Under the pieces are notes generated by a model. The model did not search any database, was not told the origin of the DNA, and saw only the letters and a list, made by a program, of their open reading frames with translations. From assembly GCF_005844425.1 (NCBI RefSeq), contig NZ_SPHL01000001.1, positions 62,001 through 126,000 of the forward strand: a stretch of DNA of 64,000 nucleotides, written 5' to 3'. A program made the translations under genes and the position numbers. This DNA is from Anaerofustis stercorihominis (lineage in GTDB: Bacteria > Bacillota > Clostridia > Eubacteriales > Anaerofustaceae). Of the stretch, positions 25,802 to 36,371 are shown one piece after another (position 1 is the first letter of the stretch; the number at the start of each line of letters is the position of its first letter).

Positions 25802-26563
25802 ATGGAAAAGAGAAAAAAGATTATTACTAAAGATATGAATCTTTATTATTCAGAAAACCATGCTTTAAAAAATATAAACATGGATATTTTAGAAAATGAA
25901 GTAGTATCATTAATAGGTCCAAGTGGATGCGGTAAGTCTACATATTTAAAAAGTTTAAATAGAATGAATGATTTGGTAGATGGAGTAAAAATTACCGGGG
26001 AAATATTAATTGATAATGAAAATATATATGATAATGATATTGATGTAACATTGCTTAGAAAAAAAGTAGGTATGGTATTCCAAAAACCAAACCCATTCCC
26101 AATGAGCATATATGATAACATTGCTTATGGTCCGAGAGTTCACGGAATAAAAAATAAAAGCGAACTTGATGAAATTGTAGAAAGAAGTTTAAGAGGTGCT
26201 GCTTTATTTGATGAAGTAAAAGACAGACTTAAAAAATCTGCTTTTGGTTTATCAGGTGGTCAACAACAAAGACTTTGTATTGCCAGAGCATTGGCAGTTG
26301 AACCTGAAATTCTTCTTATGGATGAACCGACTTCAGCTTTAGACCCTATTTCTACAATGAAGATAGAGGAATTGGTATTTGACCTTAAAAAGAAATATAC
26401 TGTTGTAATTGTAACTCATAATATGCAACAGGCTGCAAGAATTTCTGATAAAACAGCATTTTTCTTGCTTGGAGAATTAATTGAATACAATAAAACTTCT
26501 TCTTTGTTTGCTAATCCAAAGCATCCAAAAACAGAAGAATACATAACAGGAAGATTTGGTTGA
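25802..26563 (+). CDS. pstB: Phosphate ABC transporter ATPase PstB
   Basis: This 253-residue ABC ATPase has Walker [10 protein letters not shown], the Q loop [15 protein letters not shown] that is diagnostic of PstB, signature [15 protein letters not shown], Walker [13 protein letters not shown] and the switch His in VTHNM. It powers phosphate import by PstCA. The gene begins eight bases after pstA. Confidence 0.97.
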
Positions 26564-26605
26564 TACTTAACTATAACTTATCAAACAGGAAGGAGAAATA
26601 TATAA

Positions 26606-27280
26606 ATGAGTGCAAGAAGAAGATTTGATGAAGAACTTGGTTTATTACATAATGAGCTTATTGAAATGGGTTCTATGATTGAAAAGGCAATAAAGTCTTC
26701 ATTTGAAGCAATTGAAAGTGATGATGAAGATATTGCAAGAGATATTATTGAAAATGATAAAGCAATAAATGAAATGGAAAGAAAAATCGAAGCAAGATGC
26801 CTTAAATTAATTTTAAGACAACAGCCCGTTGCTTCCGATTTAAGACTTATATCAACGGCTATGAAGATGATTACCGATATGGAAAGAATAGGTGACCATG
26901 CTGCTGATATAGCATCAATCTGCATACCTGACGAAAGAGAAAAAAATCAAGAAAAATTTAAAATTGTAGATGAAAAGATTATACAAATGTCAAACATAGA
27001 TTTGGAAATGGTTGCTTCGAGCATTTCTGCTTTTGTCAACGACAATTTGGAACTTGCAAAAACTACCATTAAAACGGATGCCGAAGTTGACGAGTTGTTT
27101 TATGAAGTCAGAGATGATATAATAAAAGGGCTTAAAAATGATGAAATCTCTCCGGGACTTGCAATGGATACGTTAATGCTTATTAAGTATCTTGAAAGAA
27201 TAGGAGACCATGCGACAAATATTTGTGAATGGGTAATCTTCTATTTGACGGGAGAACATAAAAACAAAAAATTATTGTAA
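26606..27280 (+). CDS. phoU: Phosphate-signalling protein PhoU
   Basis: This 224-residue protein has two PhoU three-helix repeats, each with the metal-binding (E/D)xxxD-type motif seen in MITDMERIGDHAADIA and LIKYLERIGDHATNIC. PhoU links the Pst transporter to the PhoR kinase and shuts down phosphate-starvation signalling when phosphate is plentiful. Position between pstB and the two-component genes is standard. Confidence 0.95.
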   Translation: MSARRRFDEELGLLHNELIEMGSMIEKAIKSSFEAIESDDEDIARDIIENDKAINEMERKIEARCLKLILRQQPVASDLRLISTAMKMITDMERIGDHAADIASICIPDEREKNQEKFKIVDEKIIQMSNIDLEMVASSISAFVNDNLELAKTTIKTDAEVDELFYEVRDDIIKGLKNDEISPGLAMDTLMLIKYLERIGDHATNICEWVIFYLTGEHKNKKLL

Positions 27281-27298
27281 TAAAGGATAGTGAAAATT

Positions 27299-27979
27299 AT
27301 GGGAAATTATATTTATGTAGTTGAGGATGATAACAATATAAGCGAATTATTGAAATGTTCATTGGAAGCATTTAATTTTTACGTAAAAGTATACGAAAAT
27401 TGTGAAGACATGATGGTTGCATTAAAAGAGGAAAAACCTAAATTAATGCTTCTTGATATTATGCTTCCAGGAATGAGCGGCATAGATGCATTAAAACTAC
27501 TTAAAAACAGTAAAAAATATAAAGAAATTCCCATAATTATTCTAAGTGCAAAAAGCAGTGAAATAGACAAAGTAAATGCTTTAGAGCTTGGTGCCGACGA
27601 TTATGTTACTAAACCTTTCTCTGTTTTAGAGCTTTCTTCAAGAATTAAAAGCGTGCTTAGAAGAAGTTATAAAGAGGAAAATAATATATTGAGTTATAAA
27701 GACATAACCATAGATAAAGAAAATTATTTGGTTACACATTCCGGAGAAGAAGTGGTTCTTACGAAGAAAGAATATAAAATACTTCTTTATATGTTTGAAA
27801 ACGAAGGAAGGGTAGTAACCAGAGAAGAACTTTTGAACGAAGTATGGGGATATGATTTTGAAGGTGAAAGTCGTACTCTTGATATGCATATGAAAACTTT
27901 AAGAAATAAAATCGGAAGCGAAGACGATAAGTATAAGTATATAAAAACCGTTAGAGGAATAGGTTATAAATTAGGATAA
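27299..27979 (+). CDS. phoP: OmpR/PhoB-family response regulator (PhoP)
   Basis: This 226-residue response regulator has a receiver domain with the acidic pocket VVEDDNN, phosphoacceptor Asp53 in LLDIMLPGMSG, and Lys in VTKPFS. The C-terminal winged-helix domain contains LTKKEYKILLYMFENEGRVVTREELLNEVWGYD and TVRGIGYKLG. ATG at 27299 is favoured over GTG at 27290 because AAAGGA would be only two bases from the latter. It probably binds the Pho box in front of pstS. Confidence 0.9.
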   Translation: MGNYIYVVEDDNNISELLKCSLEAFNFYVKVYENCEDMMVALKEEKPKLMLLDIMLPGMSGIDALKLLKNSKKYKEIPIIILSAKSSEIDKVNALELGADDYVTKPFSVLELSSRIKSVLRRSYKEENNILSYKDITIDKENYLVTHSGEEVVLTKKEYKILLYMFENEGRVVTREELLNEVWGYDFEGESRTLDMHMKTLRNKIGSEDDKYKYIKTVRGIGYKLG

Positions 27980-29226
27980 TGAGAAAATTCGTATTTGTAA
28001 GAAGTTTTCTTGTAGGTCTTATTTGTACTTTAATACTTAGTTTGTCCTTCTTTTTCGTATTATCCAAAAATCAAGATAATGGCTATCATACTACAATAGA
28101 ATCTTTCCTTCATACCGTTAAAGAAACCTACGAATTTAGTACTGATTATGAAAAAGACGCAGAATATTTAGAAGCAATTTCAACCGATAATTACAGAGTA
28201 ACAATTATTTCTCCTAATGGAACTGTTTTGGCTGATTCAACACACAAAGAACTTACCGAAAATCATAAAAATAGAGAAGAAGTTAAACAGGCACTTAAAG
28301 AAGGAGAAGGTTATTCCATAAGAAGTTCTTCAACTCTTGATAAAAAAGTTATGTATGGGGCTATTGTGTTAAAGAATGGTAACATTTTGAGAGTCATGGT
28401 TTCTATGGGTACAATTTACAGTAATTTGGCTACAAAAATTATTATATTTATTTTAGCTATAGTAATTTCTTTTATTATATCTTGGGTTGCAGCGAGGAAG
28501 TTTGCGAACGACTCCATAAAACCTTTTGGAAGTGCCGTTGATATATATAAAAAAGAATTTTTTGCAAATGCCTCTCATGAGCTTAAAACTCCCATTACTT
28601 CAATAAGAGGATTTGCAGAGCTTATTTCTTCCGGGCTTATAAATGATAAAGATAAGATAATTGAATACAGCACGACAATAAAAAGAGAAGCCATAAGGAT
28701 GGATACAATGGTAGAAGAAATACTTAAGTTATCCAGCCTTGAAGATATAGATGAAAATGAAATGCCTCTTGAAAAATTAAATGTTGCAGAAATTATAAAA
28801 GAAGCAGTTGAAGTTCTTGATTATAAGTTATACGAAAAGAAAATCATAACAAATGTAGATGTGCATGATGTATATATCGAAAGTGTGCATGAAGATATAT
28901 TAAGAGTTTTTACAAATCTTATTGAAAACGGCATTAAGTATAATAAAGATAACGGAAAGATATATATTTCTTTACGTAAAGTAAAAAATAAAGCTGTTAT
29001 TACTATTAAAGATACCGGAATAGGAATAAAAGAAGAAGATCTTCCTCACATTTTTGAAAGATTTTATCGTGTTGATAAAAGCAGAAATAGAAAGGTTGAA
29101 GGGACGGGTCTTGGGCTTTCTATAGTTAAAAGAATAGTTATGAAATACAAAGGTGAAATAAGTGTTAAATCTACCTATAACGTTGGTACGGAATTTATTA
29201 TAAAATTTGATGCAGTAACAAAATAG
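27979..29226 (+). CDS. phoR: PhoR-like sensor histidine kinase
   Basis: This 415-residue kinase has TM1 at about 8-28, an extracellular domain of roughly 120 residues (including VTIISPNGTVLADST, a PAS-like fold signature), and TM2 at about 154-172. It then has only a short linker before the H box ASHELKTPITSIRGF with His200. N, G1 and G2 boxes (ENGIKYN, DTGIGI, GTGLGLSI) follow. HAMP and cytoplasmic PAS domains, present in Bacillus PhoR, are not visible. The ATG overlaps the phoP stop by one base, so the pair is translationally coupled. Confidence 0.9.
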   Translation: MRKFVFVRSFLVGLICTLILSLSFFFVLSKNQDNGYHTTIESFLHTVKETYEFSTDYEKDAEYLEAISTDNYRVTIISPNGTVLADSTHKELTENHKNREEVKQALKEGEGYSIRSSSTLDKKVMYGAIVLKNGNILRVMVSMGTIYSNLATKIIIFILAIVISFIISWVAARKFANDSIKPFGSAVDIYKKEFFANASHELKTPITSIRGFAELISSGLINDKDKIIEYSTTIKREAIRMDTMVEEILKLSSLEDIDENEMPLEKLNVAEIIKEAVEVLDYKLYEKKIITNVDVHDVYIESVHEDILRVFTNLIENGIKYNKDNGKIYISLRKVKNKAVITIKDTGIGIKEEDLPHIFERFYRVDKSRNRKVEGTGLGLSIVKRIVMKYKGEISVKSTYNVGTEFIIKFDAVTK

Positions 29227-30190: not shown

Positions 30191-30224
30191 AAAAGAGTTT
30201 TAATATTTATATTAAAACTCTTTT
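30191..30224. terminator. Bidirectional terminator
   Basis: AAAAGAGTTTTAAT and ATTAAAACTCTTTT pair around ATTTAT between two converging genes. Confidence 0.8.
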
Positions 30225-30894
30225 AAATATTATATAAGTTAATTAAAGATTTTGTGTATTCCATTAAATCAATTGTATATTTTTCAAATTGTAATTCATC
30301 TATGTTATTATTTATTTTTAAATTAAAAAATGAATTAAGAATATTTTTATCTTCATTTTCTATTTTTTCCATTAAATCAATATTTTTATGTATGTATTTA
30401 TTGGTTTTTAAATAATATTTAGCTTTTATGCAAAAAGACATTGATTTATAAAGTGAAAGTAAAATGTCACTGCTTTTTTCATATAAAAAATTATGAACTG
30501 TCATGTGATAGGTATTACAAGCATTTAGTAACACTGCACGTTTTATATCTTCATTTTTTATAAGAGGTTTTAAAAATTCTAAACTTTTGTATATTGGAAG
30601 TGTATCAAAATAAAACTGAAAAAGGTCTGATTTTTCCCAGTTTTTTATTTCTTCAATTCCTGAGATAAAACCGCAAAATAAATTATTATGTTCTAATGAA
30701 GATATTATTTCTTTATAAGTTTTTAAATCATTTATTGATAATTTATCTAAAATCACAACAATGTCAATATCACTGTTTTCATTTGCTTCTTTTCTTGCTC
30801 TGCTTCCTTGAAGTCCCAAAAATATAAGTCTATTTTTAAATTCTTCTATAAGTTTATTTTTTAATGTTTTTAAAACTACATTTACATCAATCAT
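30223..30894 (-). CDS. Nucleotidyltransferase-domain protein with helical C-terminus
   Basis: This 223-residue protein has the minimal nucleotidyltransferase motif GLQGSRARKEANENSDIDIV at about 28-47, with the catalytic GS and DxD. The C-terminal half is helical (NACNTYHMTVHNFLYEKSSD, LYKSMSFCIKAKYYLKTNKY) and could be a substrate-binding or HEPN-like bundle, though the RNase motif R-x4-6-H of HEPN toxins is not seen. It resembles stand-alone aminoglycoside-type nucleotidyltransferases. Substrate unknown. AAGGAGG lies before the ATG. Confidence 0.65.
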   Translation of the reverse strand: MIDVNVVLKTLKNKLIEEFKNRLIFLGLQGSRARKEANENSDIDIVVILDKLSINDLKTYKEIISSLEHNNLFCGFISGIEEIKNWEKSDLFQFYFDTLPIYKSLEFLKPLIKNEDIKRAVLLNACNTYHMTVHNFLYEKSSDILLSLYKSMSFCIKAKYYLKTNKYIHKNIDLMEKIENEDKNILNSFFNLKINNNIDELQFEKYTIDLMEYTKSLINLYNI

Positions 30895-30960: not shown

Positions 30961-30989
30961 TTTACTTTTTATAGTCATAGTGCTATTAT
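30961..30989 (+). promoter_or_regulatory. Promoter of the pantothenate/CoA operon
   Basis: TTTACT at 30961-30966 and TATTAT at 30984-30989 are exactly 17 bases apart. The predicted start near 30996 gives a leader of about 120 bases. Confidence 0.75.
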
Positions 30990-30995
30990 TTATGC

Positions 30996-31115
30996 GGATG
31001 GTATTCTTTTGAAACTATACCGAGAAAAATATTAATAGTCTTCAATCTACCTAATTGCTATAAAGCTTTTATCGAAAGAAAGAGACTTTTGACTATCAAA
31101 AGGAAGAAAAGAAGA
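30996..31115 (+). promoter_or_regulatory. Structured leader of the pantothenate operon
   Basis: GGTAT/ATACC (31000-31004 and 31017-31021) forms a first hairpin. CTTTTGA/TCAAAAG (31086-31092 and 31096-31102) forms a second that overlaps the AGGAAG ribosome site at 31101-31106. ATAGTC at 31035-31040 can instead pair with GACTAT at 31091-31096, which would break the second hairpin. A switch that opens or hides the start of panG is plausible. Firmicute panB operons can carry the pan RNA motif, but I cannot confirm a match. Confidence 0.5.
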
Positions 31116-31958
31116 ATGAAAATCGGATTTATTGGTGCCGGCAAAGTAGGCGTAAGTCTTGGAAAATATTTTGCTATGCACGAAAAAAAAGTAATGGGGT
31201 ATTATAGTAATACTCCCTCTTCTGCAGTTGATGCTGCAAATTTTACAAATACTAATTATTTTAATTCTTTGGAAGATATTATATCTTTCTGTGATATTTT
31301 ATTTTTGACTGTTCCTGATTCAAAGATAAAAGAAGTATGGGAACAAATATGTAAATTTGATATAGAAAATAAAATATTTTCTCATTGTAGCGGAGCTATG
31401 TCTTCTGCTGTCTTTCAAAAGTGTGACCAAGACATTCTTGGTTTTTCCATTCATCCAATGTATGCTTTCAGCGATAAGTATACTTCTTACAAAGATCTTT
31501 CAAAGGCTTACTTTACAATTGAAGGAAACGAAAAGAGAATTAATGTTATTAAGGATTTTTTTGAAAGCCTTGGAAATCATGTAAAAATCATTCCAAAAGA
31601 CAATAAAACCAAATATCATTTATCTTGCGTTTTTGCGAGTAATTTAGTTGTAGCTTTGTTTTATAAGAGTATAAAAATTCTTATGGAAACAGGGTTTACT
31701 TTTGATGAAGCTAAAAATGCACTACTTCCTCTTTTTATGAATAATGCAGAGAATATTGCTTCAAAAGGTGTAATAAATGCATTAAGCGGTCCAATTGAAA
31801 GGAACGATGTAAAAACAGTAAAAGAGCATTTATCTGTTATAAACGGAAGTGAAAAGGATATTTATAAATTGTTGTCCAAGGAGCTTATTGATGTTGCAAT
31901 GAAAAAAGATAATACAAAAGATTATTGCAATATGAAAAAAATTATTAAAGAGGAATAA
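31116..31958 (+). CDS. panG: Ketopantoate reductase, PanG type (Rossmann/DUF2520)
   Basis: This 280-residue protein has an N-terminal NADP-binding Rossmann motif ([19 protein letters not shown]), the substrate-site segment HCSGAMSS and [11 protein letters not shown], and a C-terminal DUF2520-type helical domain. PanG, known from Francisella and with active orthologues in Clostridioides difficile and Enterococcus, replaces PanE in reducing ketopantoate to pantoate. Placement directly before panB supports this. ATG at 31116 is preferred over a TTG at 31089 that lies inside the leader hairpin. Confidence 0.85.
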
Positions 31959-31962
31959 GAGG

Positions 31963-32790
31963 ATGAAAAACACAGTAACAACATTCAAAAAACAAAAAGA
32001 AGAAAATAGTAAGATTTCCATGCTTACGGCTTATGATTATTCAATGGCAAAATTAATCGATCAGGCAGGTATTAACGGGATTTTAGTAGGGGATTCACTT
32101 GGTAATGTAATCCTTGGTTATGAAGATACAATACCTGTCACTATGGAAGATATGATCCACCACGGAAGAGCCGTTGCAAGAGGGGCAAAAGATGCATTGG
32201 TTGTTATAGATATGCCTTTCATGTCATATCAAACAAGTGTATATGATGCAGTTAAAAATGCAGGAAGACTTATGAAAGAAGGGCTTGGAGATGCCGTTAA
32301 ACTTGAAGGCGGCAGGGAAGTATGTGAACAGATAAAAGCAATAACTTCTGCCGGTATACCTGTAATGGCACATCTTGGATTAACACCACAAAGCATTAAT
32401 GCATTCGGTGGATTTAAGATACAAGGAAGAGATGAACAAAGAGCAAAACAAATTCTTGAAGATGCTTTATTGGTTGAAGAAGCTGGAGCATTTGCAATTG
32501 TTCTTGAATGTGTTCCGGAAAAATTAGCAAAACTTATTACAGAAAAAGTAAATATTCCAACAATTGGAATAGGTGCAGGAAAATACTGCGACGGACAAAT
32601 TTTGGTTTATCAAGATATGCTTGGAATGTTTTCTGACTTTACACCAAAGTTTGTAAAAAAATACGCAAACATAGGCGAAATAATGCAGGATGCATTTAGA
32701 ACTTATCATAAAGAAATAAATGAGGGTAAATTCCCTATGGAAGAAAATACATATAAAATTGATGATGAAGTTATAGAAAAATTATATTAA
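31963..32790 (+). CDS. panB: Ketopantoate hydroxymethyltransferase
   Basis: This 275-residue PanB makes ketopantoate from alpha-ketoisovalerate and methylene-THF. Marks are [63 protein letters not shown] and [15 protein letters not shown]. The start follows AATAAGAGG, four bases after panG ends. Confidence 0.97.
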
Positions 32791-32804
32791 TTATGGAGAG
32801 AAAT

Positions 32805-33650
32805 ATGAAAGTAGTACATAAAATCAGTGAAGTAAGAGAAATTGTAAATAAATGGAAAAGAGAAGGGCTTAGCGTTGGGCTTGTTCCTACAATGGGTTAT
32901 CTTCATGAAGGACATCAAAGCTTAATTAAAAAAGCCGTAGAACAAAATGACAGAGTAGTTGTAAGCGTATTTGTAAATCCTATGCAATTTGGTGAAAACG
33001 AAGATTTAGCAAGCTACCCAAGAGATCTTGAAAAAGATACAAATTTATGTGAAGAAACAGGAGCAGATTTAATTTTTAATCCAACACCTGAAGAAATGTA
33101 TCCTGAAGGTTTTTGTTCGTATGTTGATATGAACGGACTTACAAAAGAACTTTGCGGAAAAAGTAGACCTATTCATTTTAGAGGTGTTATGACTGTTGTA
33201 AGTAAGCTGTTTAATATCGTTACACCTAATAAAGCATACTTTGGAATGAAAGATGCACAACAGCTTCTTATAATAAAAAGAATGGTAAAAGATTTAAGTT
33301 TTGGTATAGAAATAGTAGGATGTCCAATAGTAAGAGAAGAAGATGGTCTTGCTAAGAGTTCAAGAAACACTTATTTAAGTGAAGAAGAAAGAAAAGCAGC
33401 TTTGATATTATATAAAACAATTAATTTAGGTAAGAAACTTCTTGAAGAAGGTGAAAGAGACAGCGCTGTTTTACTTTCAAAGATGAAAGAAAACATAAAT
33501 AAAGAACCACTTGCAAAAATTGATTATGTTGAAGCAGTCGATATTGAAAAGGTAGAAAAAGTGGATAAAATCGAAGGTACGGTTCTTGTTGCAATGGCTG
33601 TATATATTGGCAAAACAAGATTAATTGACAACTTTGTGTTTGAGTGTTAG
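32805..33650 (+). CDS. panC: Pantothenate synthetase
   Basis: This 281-residue ligase joins pantoate and beta-alanine using ATP. The HxGH-type signature is in TMGYLHEGHQSLI, followed by VVVSVFVNPMQFGENED, the pantoate site MKDAQQLL, and KSSRNTYLS. ATG at 32805 is used rather than 32793, because GGAGAG inside the first five codons is a good ribosome site for it. Confidence 0.97.
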   Translation: MKVVHKISEVREIVNKWKREGLSVGLVPTMGYLHEGHQSLIKKAVEQNDRVVVSVFVNPMQFGENEDLASYPRDLEKDTNLCEETGADLIFNPTPEEMYPEGFCSYVDMNGLTKELCGKSRPIHFRGVMTVVSKLFNIVTPNKAYFGMKDAQQLLIIKRMVKDLSFGIEIVGCPIVREEDGLAKSSRNTYLSEEERKAALILYKTINLGKKLLEEGERDSAVLLSKMKENINKEPLAKIDYVEAVDIEKVEKVDKIEGTVLVAMAVYIGKTRLIDNFVFEC

Positions 33651-33665
33651 GAGGAATATAAAAAT

Positions 33666-34067
33666 ATGTTACTGAATATGTTAAAAGGAAAAATTCACAG
33701 AGCAACAGTTGTTCAAGCAGAGCTTGATTATGTAGGAAGTATTACTGTTGATGAAGAACTTCTTGAAAAAGCCGGAATATATGAATATGAAAAGGTTCAA
33801 ATTGTAGATGTAAATAACGGAAGTAGATTTGAAACTTACACAATTGCTGGAAAAAGAGGCAGTGGTATGATATGCTTAAATGGAGCCGCAGCAAGAGAAG
33901 TTCAAGTAGGGGATAAAATTATAATAATGGCTTATGCAAACATGAGTCCTGAAGAGGTAAAAGATAATCCTCCGAAAGTGCTTTTTGTTGATGAAGATAA
34001 TAAAATAAAAAGAATAACAAGATATGAAAAACACGGGCTCTTAACGGAGGATATGATTAATGAATAA
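33666..34067 (+). CDS. panD: Aspartate 1-decarboxylase proenzyme
   Basis: This 133-residue proenzyme self-cleaves between Gly24 and Ser25 in [12 protein letters not shown] to form the pyruvoyl cofactor, then makes beta-alanine from aspartate. [17 protein letters not shown] is also conserved. It supplies the beta-alanine used by the preceding panC and overlaps coaBC by eight bases. Confidence 0.96.
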
Positions 34068-35274
34068 AATTTTAGAGGGTAAAGTAGTAACCCTTGGTAT
34101 AACGGGCAGTATTGCTGCTTATAAAATGGCAAATGTTGCCAGTATGCTTATAAAATTAGGTGCTGAAGTTCATGTAATAATGACTAAAAATGCAACTAAT
34201 TTTATAAATCCAATAACATTTGAAACTTTAACAAATACAAAATGCCTTGTTGATACATTCGATAGAAATTTTGAATTTCATGTGTCTCATGTAAATCTTG
34301 GTCAAAAATCAGATGTAATGCTTATTGCACCTGCAAGTGCAAATATTATTGCAAAAATGGCTTATGGAATAGCAGATGATATGTTATCAACTACTGTTTT
34401 GGCAGCTACTTGCAAAAAGATAGTATCTCCTGCAATGAATACACATATGTACCATAATCAAATAGTTCAAGATAACATAGAAAAATTAAAAGAATATGGT
34501 TTTGAAATAATAGAGCCTGCAAAAGGCATGCTAGCGTGTAGAGACATTGGAGACGGTAAACTTCCTGATGAACAGACTCTTGTAAATTATGTATTAAAAG
34601 AAATAGCTCATGAAAAAGATTTACAAGGTATGAATGTTATGGTTACGGCAGGAGCTACAATGGAAGCTATAGACCCTGTAAGATACATAACAAATCATTC
34701 AAGCGGTAAAATGGGATATGCAATTGCAAGAAATGCAATGTTAAGAGGTGCAAAGGTAACTTTAGTAAGTGCCAATAGCAGTGAAGAAGTTCCTCCTTTT
34801 GTTGAATTAATTAAAGTCAAAAGCGCAAAAGATATGTTTGAAGCTGTAAAAGAAAAGAGCAGTGATATGGATTTTATCATTAAGGCTGCTGCAGTTTCTG
34901 ATTATACGCCTATTGATGTAAGTGATGAAAAAATAAAGAAAAAAGATGGAGATCTTTCCATAAAACTAAAAAGAACAGATGATATTTTGATGTATCTTGG
35001 AGAAAATAAAAAACAAAATCAAGTTTTATGTGGTTTTGCAATGGAAACTCAAAACTTAATAGATAATGCAAAAGCTAAATTAAAAAAGAAAAATGCTGAT
35101 ATTATAGTGGCTAACTGCTTAAAAGAAGAGGGAGCAGGTTTTAAGGGTGATACAAATAAAGTGACATTCCTTACAAAAGACAATATTGAGAAAAAAGAGC
35201 TTATGAGTAAATATGAAGTAAGCGAGATTTTACTTGATAAATTAATTGAAATAAAAAATAAAAAGACCGATTAA
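34060..35274 (+). CDS. coaBC: Bifunctional phosphopantothenoylcysteine synthetase/decarboxylase
   Basis: This 404-residue fusion has an N-terminal FMN decarboxylase half ([48 protein letters not shown]). The C-terminal half is the CTP-dependent synthetase ([35 protein letters not shown]-like [13 protein letters not shown]). It performs two steps from phosphopantothenate to phosphopantetheine. Its presence joins pantothenate synthesis and CoA synthesis in one transcript. Confidence 0.96.
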
Positions 35275-35286
35275 TCGGTCTTTTTT
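35261..35286. terminator. Bidirectional terminator, end of the pan-coaBC operon
   Basis: AAAAGACCGATTAATCGGTCTTTT is fully self-complementary and contains the coaBC stop; T or A runs flank it on both sides, serving prfB as well. Confidence 0.85.
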
Positions 35287-36371
35287 AAATATGCATCAAT
35301 AAATAAATCAATATCTCCGTCCATTACTGATTGAACGTTTGATGTTTCGGCTTTAGTCCTATGGTCTTTTACCATGCTGTATGGGTGGAAAACATATGAG
35401 CGAATTTGATTTCCCCATGCGATTTGTCCATAGTCGCCTTTTATTTCATCAAGTTTTTCTTTATGTTCTTCCATTAATATTTTGTATAGTTTACCCTTTA
35501 AAATCTTCATCGCTGTTTCTTTGTTTTGGAACTGGCTTCTTTCGTTTTGGCATGATACTACGATTTTTGTAGGAAGATGAGTTATTCTAACAGCTGAGTC
35601 GGTTTTGTTTACATGTTGTCCTCCTGCTCCTCCTGAGCGGTAAGTATCTATTTTTAAATCACTTGGATTGATTTCAAGGTTTATATCTTCTTTTATTTCC
35701 GGTTCTACATCTACTGATGCAAAAGAAGTATGTCTTCTGTTGTTGCTGTCAAAAGGTGAGATTCTTACAAGTCGATGTACCCCTTTTTCGCTTTTTAAAT
35801 ATCCGTAAGCATTTTCTCCCTTAATAAGAATCGTAACACTTTTTATTCCTGCAACATCCCCCGATAACTCTTCGAGAATTTTTATTTTAAAATTTCTCTT
35901 TTCTGCAAATCTTACAAACATTCTATATAGCATTTCTGCCCAGTCTTGGCTTTCTGTTCCTCCTGCTCCTGGGTGAATTGAAAGAATGGCATTGTTTGAA
36001 TCGTATTCTCCTGATAAAAGAGTTGTTAGTGCAAAATTATTTACATCTTTTTTTAGCATGTTTAATTCTTTTAAGGTATTATCTGCTTCTGTTTCTATGA
36101 ATTCTTCACTTAACATTTCCATTATAATGCTGATATCTTCTTTTTTGTTTTCAAGAGATGTAAATGATGTTATTTGTGATTTTAAAGTTTTAACGTCCTT
36201 TAAAATTTGATTTGCATTTTCGCTGTCATTCCAAAAATTTTCATCATTCATTAAGCTTTCTTTTTCTTTTAGATTTTGTTGTAAACTTTCAATGTTAACG
36301 GAGTTTGATAAATCATCAAGTTCCTTTGATATATCATTAAGTAAATTTTTTAATTCAATTAATTCAGTCAT
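35271..36371 (-). CDS. prfB: Peptide chain release factor 2
   Basis: This 366-residue RF2 has the tripeptide SPF (RISPFDSNNRRH) that reads TGA/TAA stops and the GGQ motif (RSGGAGGQHVNKTDSAV) that triggers peptide release. The family's in-frame TGA programmed frameshift near codon 25 is absent: the frame reads straight through LSNSVNIESL. RF2 level is therefore not autoregulated by frameshifting here. AAGGAAGTAATAAA precedes ATG. Confidence 0.96.
   Translation of the reverse strand: MTELIELKNLLNDISKELDDLSNSVNIESLQQNLKEKESLMNDENFWNDSENANQILKDVKTLKSQITSFTSLENKKEDISIIMEMLSEEFIETEADNTLKELNMLKKDVNNFALTTLLSGEYDSNNAILSIHPGAGGTESQDWAEMLYRMFVRFAEKRNFKIKILEELSGDVAGIKSVTILIKGENAYGYLKSEKGVHRLVRISPFDSNNRRHTSFASVDVEPEIKEDINLEINPSDLKIDTYRSGGAGGQHVNKTDSAVRITHLPTKIVVSCQNERSQFQNKETAMKILKGKLYKILMEEHKEKLDEIKGDYGQIAWGNQIRSYVFHPYSMVKDHRTKAETSNVQSVMDGDIDLFIDAYLKKTD

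Follow-up and report, generated by a model that had tools for sequence, protein, structure and literature searches.

A tandem pan RNA before the pantothenate/CoA operon of Anaerofustis stercorihominis, a putative feedback-off leader, and a predicted antiterminator in the pan family

The window, that is, the whole stretch of 64,000 nucleotides analysed here (Anaerofustis stercorihominis, contig NZ_SPHL01000001.1, positions 62,001 to 126,000), carries on its forward strand an operon for pantothenate and CoA synthesis, in which a leader is followed by panG-panB-panC-panD-coaBC:

31116-31958, + strand: DUF2520/Rossmann protein, PanG-type ketopantoate reductase (Pfam PF10728, 5.9e-37; operon position)
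31963-32790, + strand: panB (TIGR00222, over cut-off)
32793-33650, + strand: panC (TIGR00018, over cut-off)
33666-34067, + strand: panD (TIGR00223, over cut-off)
34060-35274, + strand: coaBC (TIGR00521, over cut-off)

The DUF2520 domain is the one linked to the name of PanG-type ketopantoate reductase. The name panG is supported by the available part of PMC4207893. The original prediction for this DNA had the operon holding all steps from ketopantoate formation to phosphopantetheine, and here one step falls out: PanB, the DUF2520 reductase, PanC, PanD and CoaBC are present, and a pantothenate kinase is missing from the five genes, a type III pantothenate kinase being located on the same contig outside the window (G000:C11:41335-41946). 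Among the neighbours, a nucleotidyltransferase-domain protein (30223-30894, minus strand, PF01909) is divergent from the operon, and a frame resembling, by eye, peptide chain release factor 2 (35271-36371, minus strand) is uninterrupted and without the usual programmed frameshift site. Further upstream, a cluster similar to phosphate uptake genes (25802-29226, plus strand) comprises, by eye, an ABC ATPase, a PhoU-like protein, a response regulator and a sensor kinase.

When all 64,000 nucleotides were scanned against Rfam, only two matches exceeded the curated cut-off, one tRNA and the pan motif RF01749, the latter at 30995-31092 of the forward strand with 45.2 bits against a gathering cut-off of 36.2 and over the full model (1-92 of 92). 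This full-model match over the cut-off identifies the leader as a tandem pan RNA; it is therefore a pan RNA, RF01749, in its full-length tandem form. Pan RNAs have been described as usually tandem elements, with two bulged As in the stem, before panB, panC or panD genes (Weinberg 2010; PMC2864571), and transcriptome studies place pan upstream of panB, as far as the available parts of these reports go (PMC5670726; PMC4342826). In the window, the cmscan alignment leaves an unpaired A on either side of both stems, the two units lie in tandem and the leader precedes a panB-panC-panD operon. The window's copy is thus a new pan RNA of an already known family, and the original prediction, which had proposed both this family and a regulatory leader for the pantothenate operon, was right on the two counts. 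The parts of the leader are the following:

30961-30989, + strand: promoter-like sequence, TTTACT at 30961-30966 and extended -10 TGCTATTAT at 30981-30989 (from sequence)
30995-31092, + strand: pan RNA RF01749, tandem (cmscan)
30995-31022, + strand: pan stem 1 (P1), CGG/CCG, AUGGU/ACUAU with a bulged A on each side, UUC/GAA (cmscan alignment, unit finder)
31023-31062, + strand: linker between P1 and P2, with AUAGUC at 31035-31040 and UCUUC-UCU-CCU at 31039-31052
31063-31088, + strand: pan stem 2 (P2), AAG/CUU, CUUUU/AAGAG with a bulged A on each side, UC/GA, loop GAAA (cmscan alignment, unit finder)
31086-31102, + strand: hairpin CUUUUGA-CUA-UCAAAAG (from sequence; -3.4 kcal/mol)
31098-31105, + strand: Shine-Dalgarno site AAAAGGAA (duplex computed with a typed anti-Shine-Dalgarno sequence; gap of 10 to the AUG)

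Both stems are built on the same plan: a foot of 3 bp is followed by a bulged A in the 3' strand, then by 5 bp and a bulged A in the 5' strand, and the stem ends in a short inner helix. P1 has a minimum free energy of -7.6 kcal/mol, and P2 is the weakest among the 65 scored in the family (-3.2 kcal/mol versus a median of -7.0). The start ATG is at 31116-31118, and the gene begins 27 nt past P2. A search past P2 in the window's leader for a terminator-like hairpin followed by a run of U gave nothing; the terminator between pan RNA and gene that marks a transcription attenuator is lacking.

Pan matches are present in 3/3 genomes of the genus, 14/67 of the order and 56/391 of a class sample, and every match from the order and class-sample scans was taken into the family set (L001-L067); the match in the A. 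stercorihominis DSM 28733 record (L068) is identical to that of L003. The element is patchy, since only 9 of 80 loci around the nearest relatives of PanB have a pan match, some of these loci ending short upstream of panB. The base pairs of the stems vary compatibly over 65 of the 67 loci (P1 m1 with five pair types and P2 m3 with six, all paired), counts that lean towards structure in that the finder required both bulged As and scored pairing; L054 and L067, each with one poorly scored stem, were excluded here and from the accessibility test discussed below.

Upstream of the RNA, TTTACT and TATTAT are separated by 17 nt, and the extended -10 TGCTATTAT stops five bases short of stem 1 in all three Anaerofustis members (window, L002, L003). 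In 35/67 loci of the family the best -10 box stands 5-7 nt ahead of stem 1, versus 6/67 in a control placed 35 nt further upstream. The genus-wide extended -10 and the family-wide peak together suggest, from sequence, that the transcript probably starts at or beside stem 1. The window also holds a second ATAGTC, at 30971-30976 within the promoter spacer; with the start at stem 1, these letters would be part of the promoter and probably outside the RNA.

The genes behind pan are more diverse than panB, panC and panD. The first recognised gene in the 67 loci is of the panG type in 35, panT in nine, panC in nine, panB in eight and coaBC in one, five loci having none of these. The panT genes encode ECF S components (PF12822 in the two tested, the remaining seven being assigned by their resemblance to this pair), and one PanT searched against the PDB gave as its best match chain S of 4rfs (E 1.7e-18), which we take to be a pantothenate transporter. 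In 6/9 panT loci, as judged from the positions of pan and of the type III kinase, coaX is directly downstream of panT (order pan-panT-coaX at L007, L010, L057, L059, L064 and L066), so pan RNA seems to control coaX, the type III pantothenate kinase gene, jointly with a pantothenate transporter gene. In all nine panT leaders GGAGG or GGGAG is found at the P2 foot, with the AUG 10-13 nt further on. The five loci with none of the recognised first genes lead into an OPT-family frame about 100-200 nt further on, with the Pfam assignment made for L055. These loci (L055, L056, L058, L060 and L046) display a panT-form pan, with ACGGGGG or ACGGAGG at the P2 foot, then a very short frame and then the OPT-type frame; the short frame, which by eye reads MMYFISVFQT in L055, L056 and L058, is possibly a leader peptide or what is left of a lost panT. 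In L045 and L052, panC is about 420-520 nt away from the pan leader; by eye, the gap in L045 resembles a decayed panG frame, and the genome of L045 (G105) has another pan RNA, L024, which precedes a gene of the panG type. Furthermore, PanB had no match in 6 of the 16 pan-bearing genomes searched and a weak one in a seventh, and the presence of pan in genomes without PanB indicates that the element also occurs independently of pantothenate synthesis. With panT-coaX and OPT among the targets, the range of candidate ligands becomes broader, and the occurrence of pan in PanB-less genomes narrows that of candidate proteins.

The sign of the regulation can be approached in the leaders that have a terminator. 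Thirty-eight leaders have at least 60 nt from P2 to the gene, and 34 of them have a terminator, the other four (L020, L039, L041 and L045) being left out of the terminator analysis. The P2 3' strand pairs downstream at p <= 0.05 against dinucleotide shuffles in 12 of the 38 (mean z -1.06). When the P2 5' strand was kept open and the RNA folded up to the terminator loop, the P2 3' strand and the terminator 5' arm or loop were paired in 26/34 leaders versus 12.3 expected. The outer three bases of the P2 3' strand took part in 19/34 versus 4.85 expected, with 15/34 at p <= 0.05. Counted by genus, the pairing is 0.51 versus 0.18 in shuffles (Wilcoxon p = 6e-4, 20 genera; 10 genera versus 3.2). P2 arms swapped between genera pair equally (0.49 versus 0.51 for the native ones), which points to a match to the conserved motif rather than to locus-by-locus covariation. 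The gain in antiterminator energy is at p <= 0.05 versus shuffles in 7/34; L004 and L005 pair chiefly by other parts of the arm, and little pairing is found in L018, L029, L030, L035, L037, L040, L050 and L052. These folds suggest a design in which segments 1:2 would form P2, 2:3 the antiterminator and 3:4 the terminator. Since the P2 3' strand is common to P2 and the antiterminator, a formed P2 should stop transcription, and the model predicts the sign of each change in stem 2. We regard this family-level antiterminator and the panT, coaX and OPT targets as useful additions to the known pan motif.

The leader of the window, in which the gene soon follows P2, must be read differently, and the original prediction had put forward a two-state switch in which ATAGTC in the linker and a hairpin over the start of the ribosome site compete for GACTAT. 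The letters are as described (ATAGTC at 31035-31040, GACTAT at 31091-31096, CTTTTGA at 31086-31092 and TCAAAAG at 31096-31102), and the 3' arm of the hairpin does cover the first part of AAAAGGAA; the competition itself was not supported. In such a switch, the linker AUAGUC would pair with GACUAU, opening the hairpin CUUUUGA/UCAAAAG, and the leader would toggle translation unaided, a reading that we consider very improbable in spite of the complementary letters and of the contact between hairpin and ribosome site. In fact, complementarity over six or more letters between linker and post-stem segment is also found in 305/2000 shuffled linkers, which places the ATAGTC partner not above chance; with everything upstream shuffled, the count is 674/2000. 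Aligned with the window, the two same-genus leaders (L002 and L003) keep the stems nearly unchanged, but their linkers are without ATAGTC and their hairpin is a different one, ATCACC/GGTGAT or GGTGGT. The P1 5' arm is a better partner of the post-stem segment than AUAGUC (p = 0.053), and the predicted accessibility is unchanged; the ATAGTC/GACTAT switch was accordingly rejected as chance-level and unconserved in the genus. An anti-sequestor of more general form, pairing the post-stem segment with upstream parts, was also rejected, no general signal being found in the directly started leaders (the 0.053 of the window being the nearest, the others far off).

As for the hairpin, shuffling yields a perfect 7-bp one with a loop of 3-8 nt in about 4% of regions of 60 nt and in 13% of leaders of 121 nt, and against shuffles of its 5' side only the window's hairpin has p = 0.07. 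It overlaps the foot of P2 by the three bases CUU (31086-31088), vanishes once these stay with P2, and would, if taken as the off-state, make the formed pan stem turn the operon ON, contrary to the logic of the terminator-type members. An exchange of strands built on this overlap, in which CUU pairs either with AAG of the P2 foot (31063-31065) or with AAG of the ribosome site (31100-31102) and the effector, bound to the pan stems, would leave the ribosome site free and turn expression on, strikes us as improbable. The two helices have like energies (-3.2 and -3.4 kcal/mol) and hairpins occupy the equivalent place in most leaders of the window's sub-type, but the bases common to both helices are confined to the window, the same-genus leaders having none, and an effector acting as ON has the sign opposite to that of the terminator leaders. 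In the equilibrium model, the accessibility of the window's ribosome site goes from 0.38 to 0.32 on opening P2. More generally, opening P2 alone brought no general change in accessibility over the 12 loci tested, being clear only in L051 (0.30 to 0.55).

Hairpin energy was used to examine the ribosome site in leaders without a terminator. The 20 terminator-less leaders, L051 being left out for having no spacer, have a mean z of -1.6 versus shuffled spacers, with 8/20 at p <= 0.05; the strongest hairpins, those of Clostridium L105, L142 and L147 and of the Lachnospiraceae record L143, are related sequences and not independent. The probability of the ribosome site being paired, versus spacer shuffles, had been tried as statistic and was replaced by hairpin energy (3/13 at p <= 0.05), being weak because the G-rich site pairs with almost anything. 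The predictions suggest that in terminator-less leaders whose gene comes soon after P2 the ribosome site is usually covered by a hairpin, and to this extent the original prediction agrees with the sub-type. In the window, the hairpin at 31086-31102 is the positional counterpart of this element, but a weak one (-3.4 kcal/mol, p = 0.07). A second contact is offered by the linker, whose UCUUC-UCU-CCU is complementary to AGG-AGA-GAAGA in the ribosome-site region 31101-31115: pairing between linker and initiation region has p = 0.066 in the window, and in the two relatives of the genus, where it covers the AUG, p is 0.013 and 0.017.

Taken as a whole, we find it reasonably probable that the tandem pan RNA, at or next to the 5' end of the transcript, is a device for switching off the supply of pantothenate and CoA by feedback. 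When the product of the pathway is plentiful, an effector would hold both bulged-A stems. In terminator leaders, the antiterminator would then be lost and transcription would stop. In terminator-less leaders, with the gene 14-43 nt after P2, the held stems would act at the ribosome site, possibly aided by the hairpin or by pairing of linker and ribosome site, and at panT, where the ribosome site is the P2 foot, binding of the effector could by itself keep the ribosome off. For the window, we infer from the logic of the pathway and from the terminator leaders that held stems would lower translation, and pantothenate or CoA is a plausible putative signal for this leader, as the original prediction had it.

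What the effector may be is weighed as follows. The contact between P2 and the ribosome site at panT makes a protein somewhat likelier than a small molecule, and we give about even chances to a protein that binds the RNA as a dimer and responds in its activity to CoA or pantothenate. A dimeric protein site was already suggested from the tandem form (PMC2864571, in the part available), and it would suit both the tandem of like units and the ribosome site adjoining P2. CoaX is one candidate, being present by eye in 56/56 pan-bearing genomes of the class sample and encoded after panT in 6/9 loci, but it is near-universal in the class (337/391 genomes), which makes its presence say little, and CoaX as partner from co-occurrence alone was set aside as uninformative. 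PanB was likewise rejected as an unlikely RNA partner, given the 6/16 pan-bearing genomes in which it has no match and the seventh in which it is weak.

A riboswitch, in which the stems directly bind a small molecule such as pantothenate, CoA or an intermediate, is possible, and we hold it only tentatively. The gene set, transporters included, is that expected for sensing the product of a pathway, the antiterminator design is riboswitch-like, and the tandem simple hairpins of guanidine-II are also said to have been first read as protein sites. On the other hand, few bases outside the helices are invariant and the loops are unconserved, and the block at panT needs no rearrangement, which suits a bulky protein. 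According to the available part of a 2022 review, no CoA riboswitch is known (PMC9971707), so that the niche is open. The full form of this idea, namely that pan directly senses a metabolite of the CoA/pantothenate pathway and jointly switches panGBCD/coaBC synthesis, import by PanT and perhaps OPT, and the CoaX step, by means of P2 as anti-antiterminator or of a covered ribosome site, we consider unlikely; if true, pan would be the missing natural RNA sensor of CoA or pantothenate. The question of the pan effector dates from 2010, and in the available text of the same review (PMC9971707) CoA stands out as missing from the ligands of riboswitches. Searches of the literature for the pan motif by name and more widely, in so far as the texts were available, led to no work that we recognised as addressing effector or mechanism: the word riboswitch was not found in the available part of a study of CoA synthesis in B. 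subtilis (PMC11487621), nor riboswitch or pan motif in that of PMC12570885.

Compared with the described members of RF01749, the window's leader has the same two tandem stems, with two bulged As each, before a panB-panC-panD operon, and differs in its very weak P2, in the gene following 27 nt on without a terminator and in the hairpin overlapping the P2 foot. In attenuation of the PyrR type, a protein stabilises an anti-antiterminator stem. The pan stem of the terminator-type leaders similarly competes with an antiterminator, whereas the leader of the window is without a terminator; we know of no PyrR-like partner for pan. In the guanidine-II or mini-ykkC riboswitch, two small tandem hairpins stand before metabolic genes, as they do in pan, but the loops of pan are unconserved and its conserved features are the bulged As in the stems.
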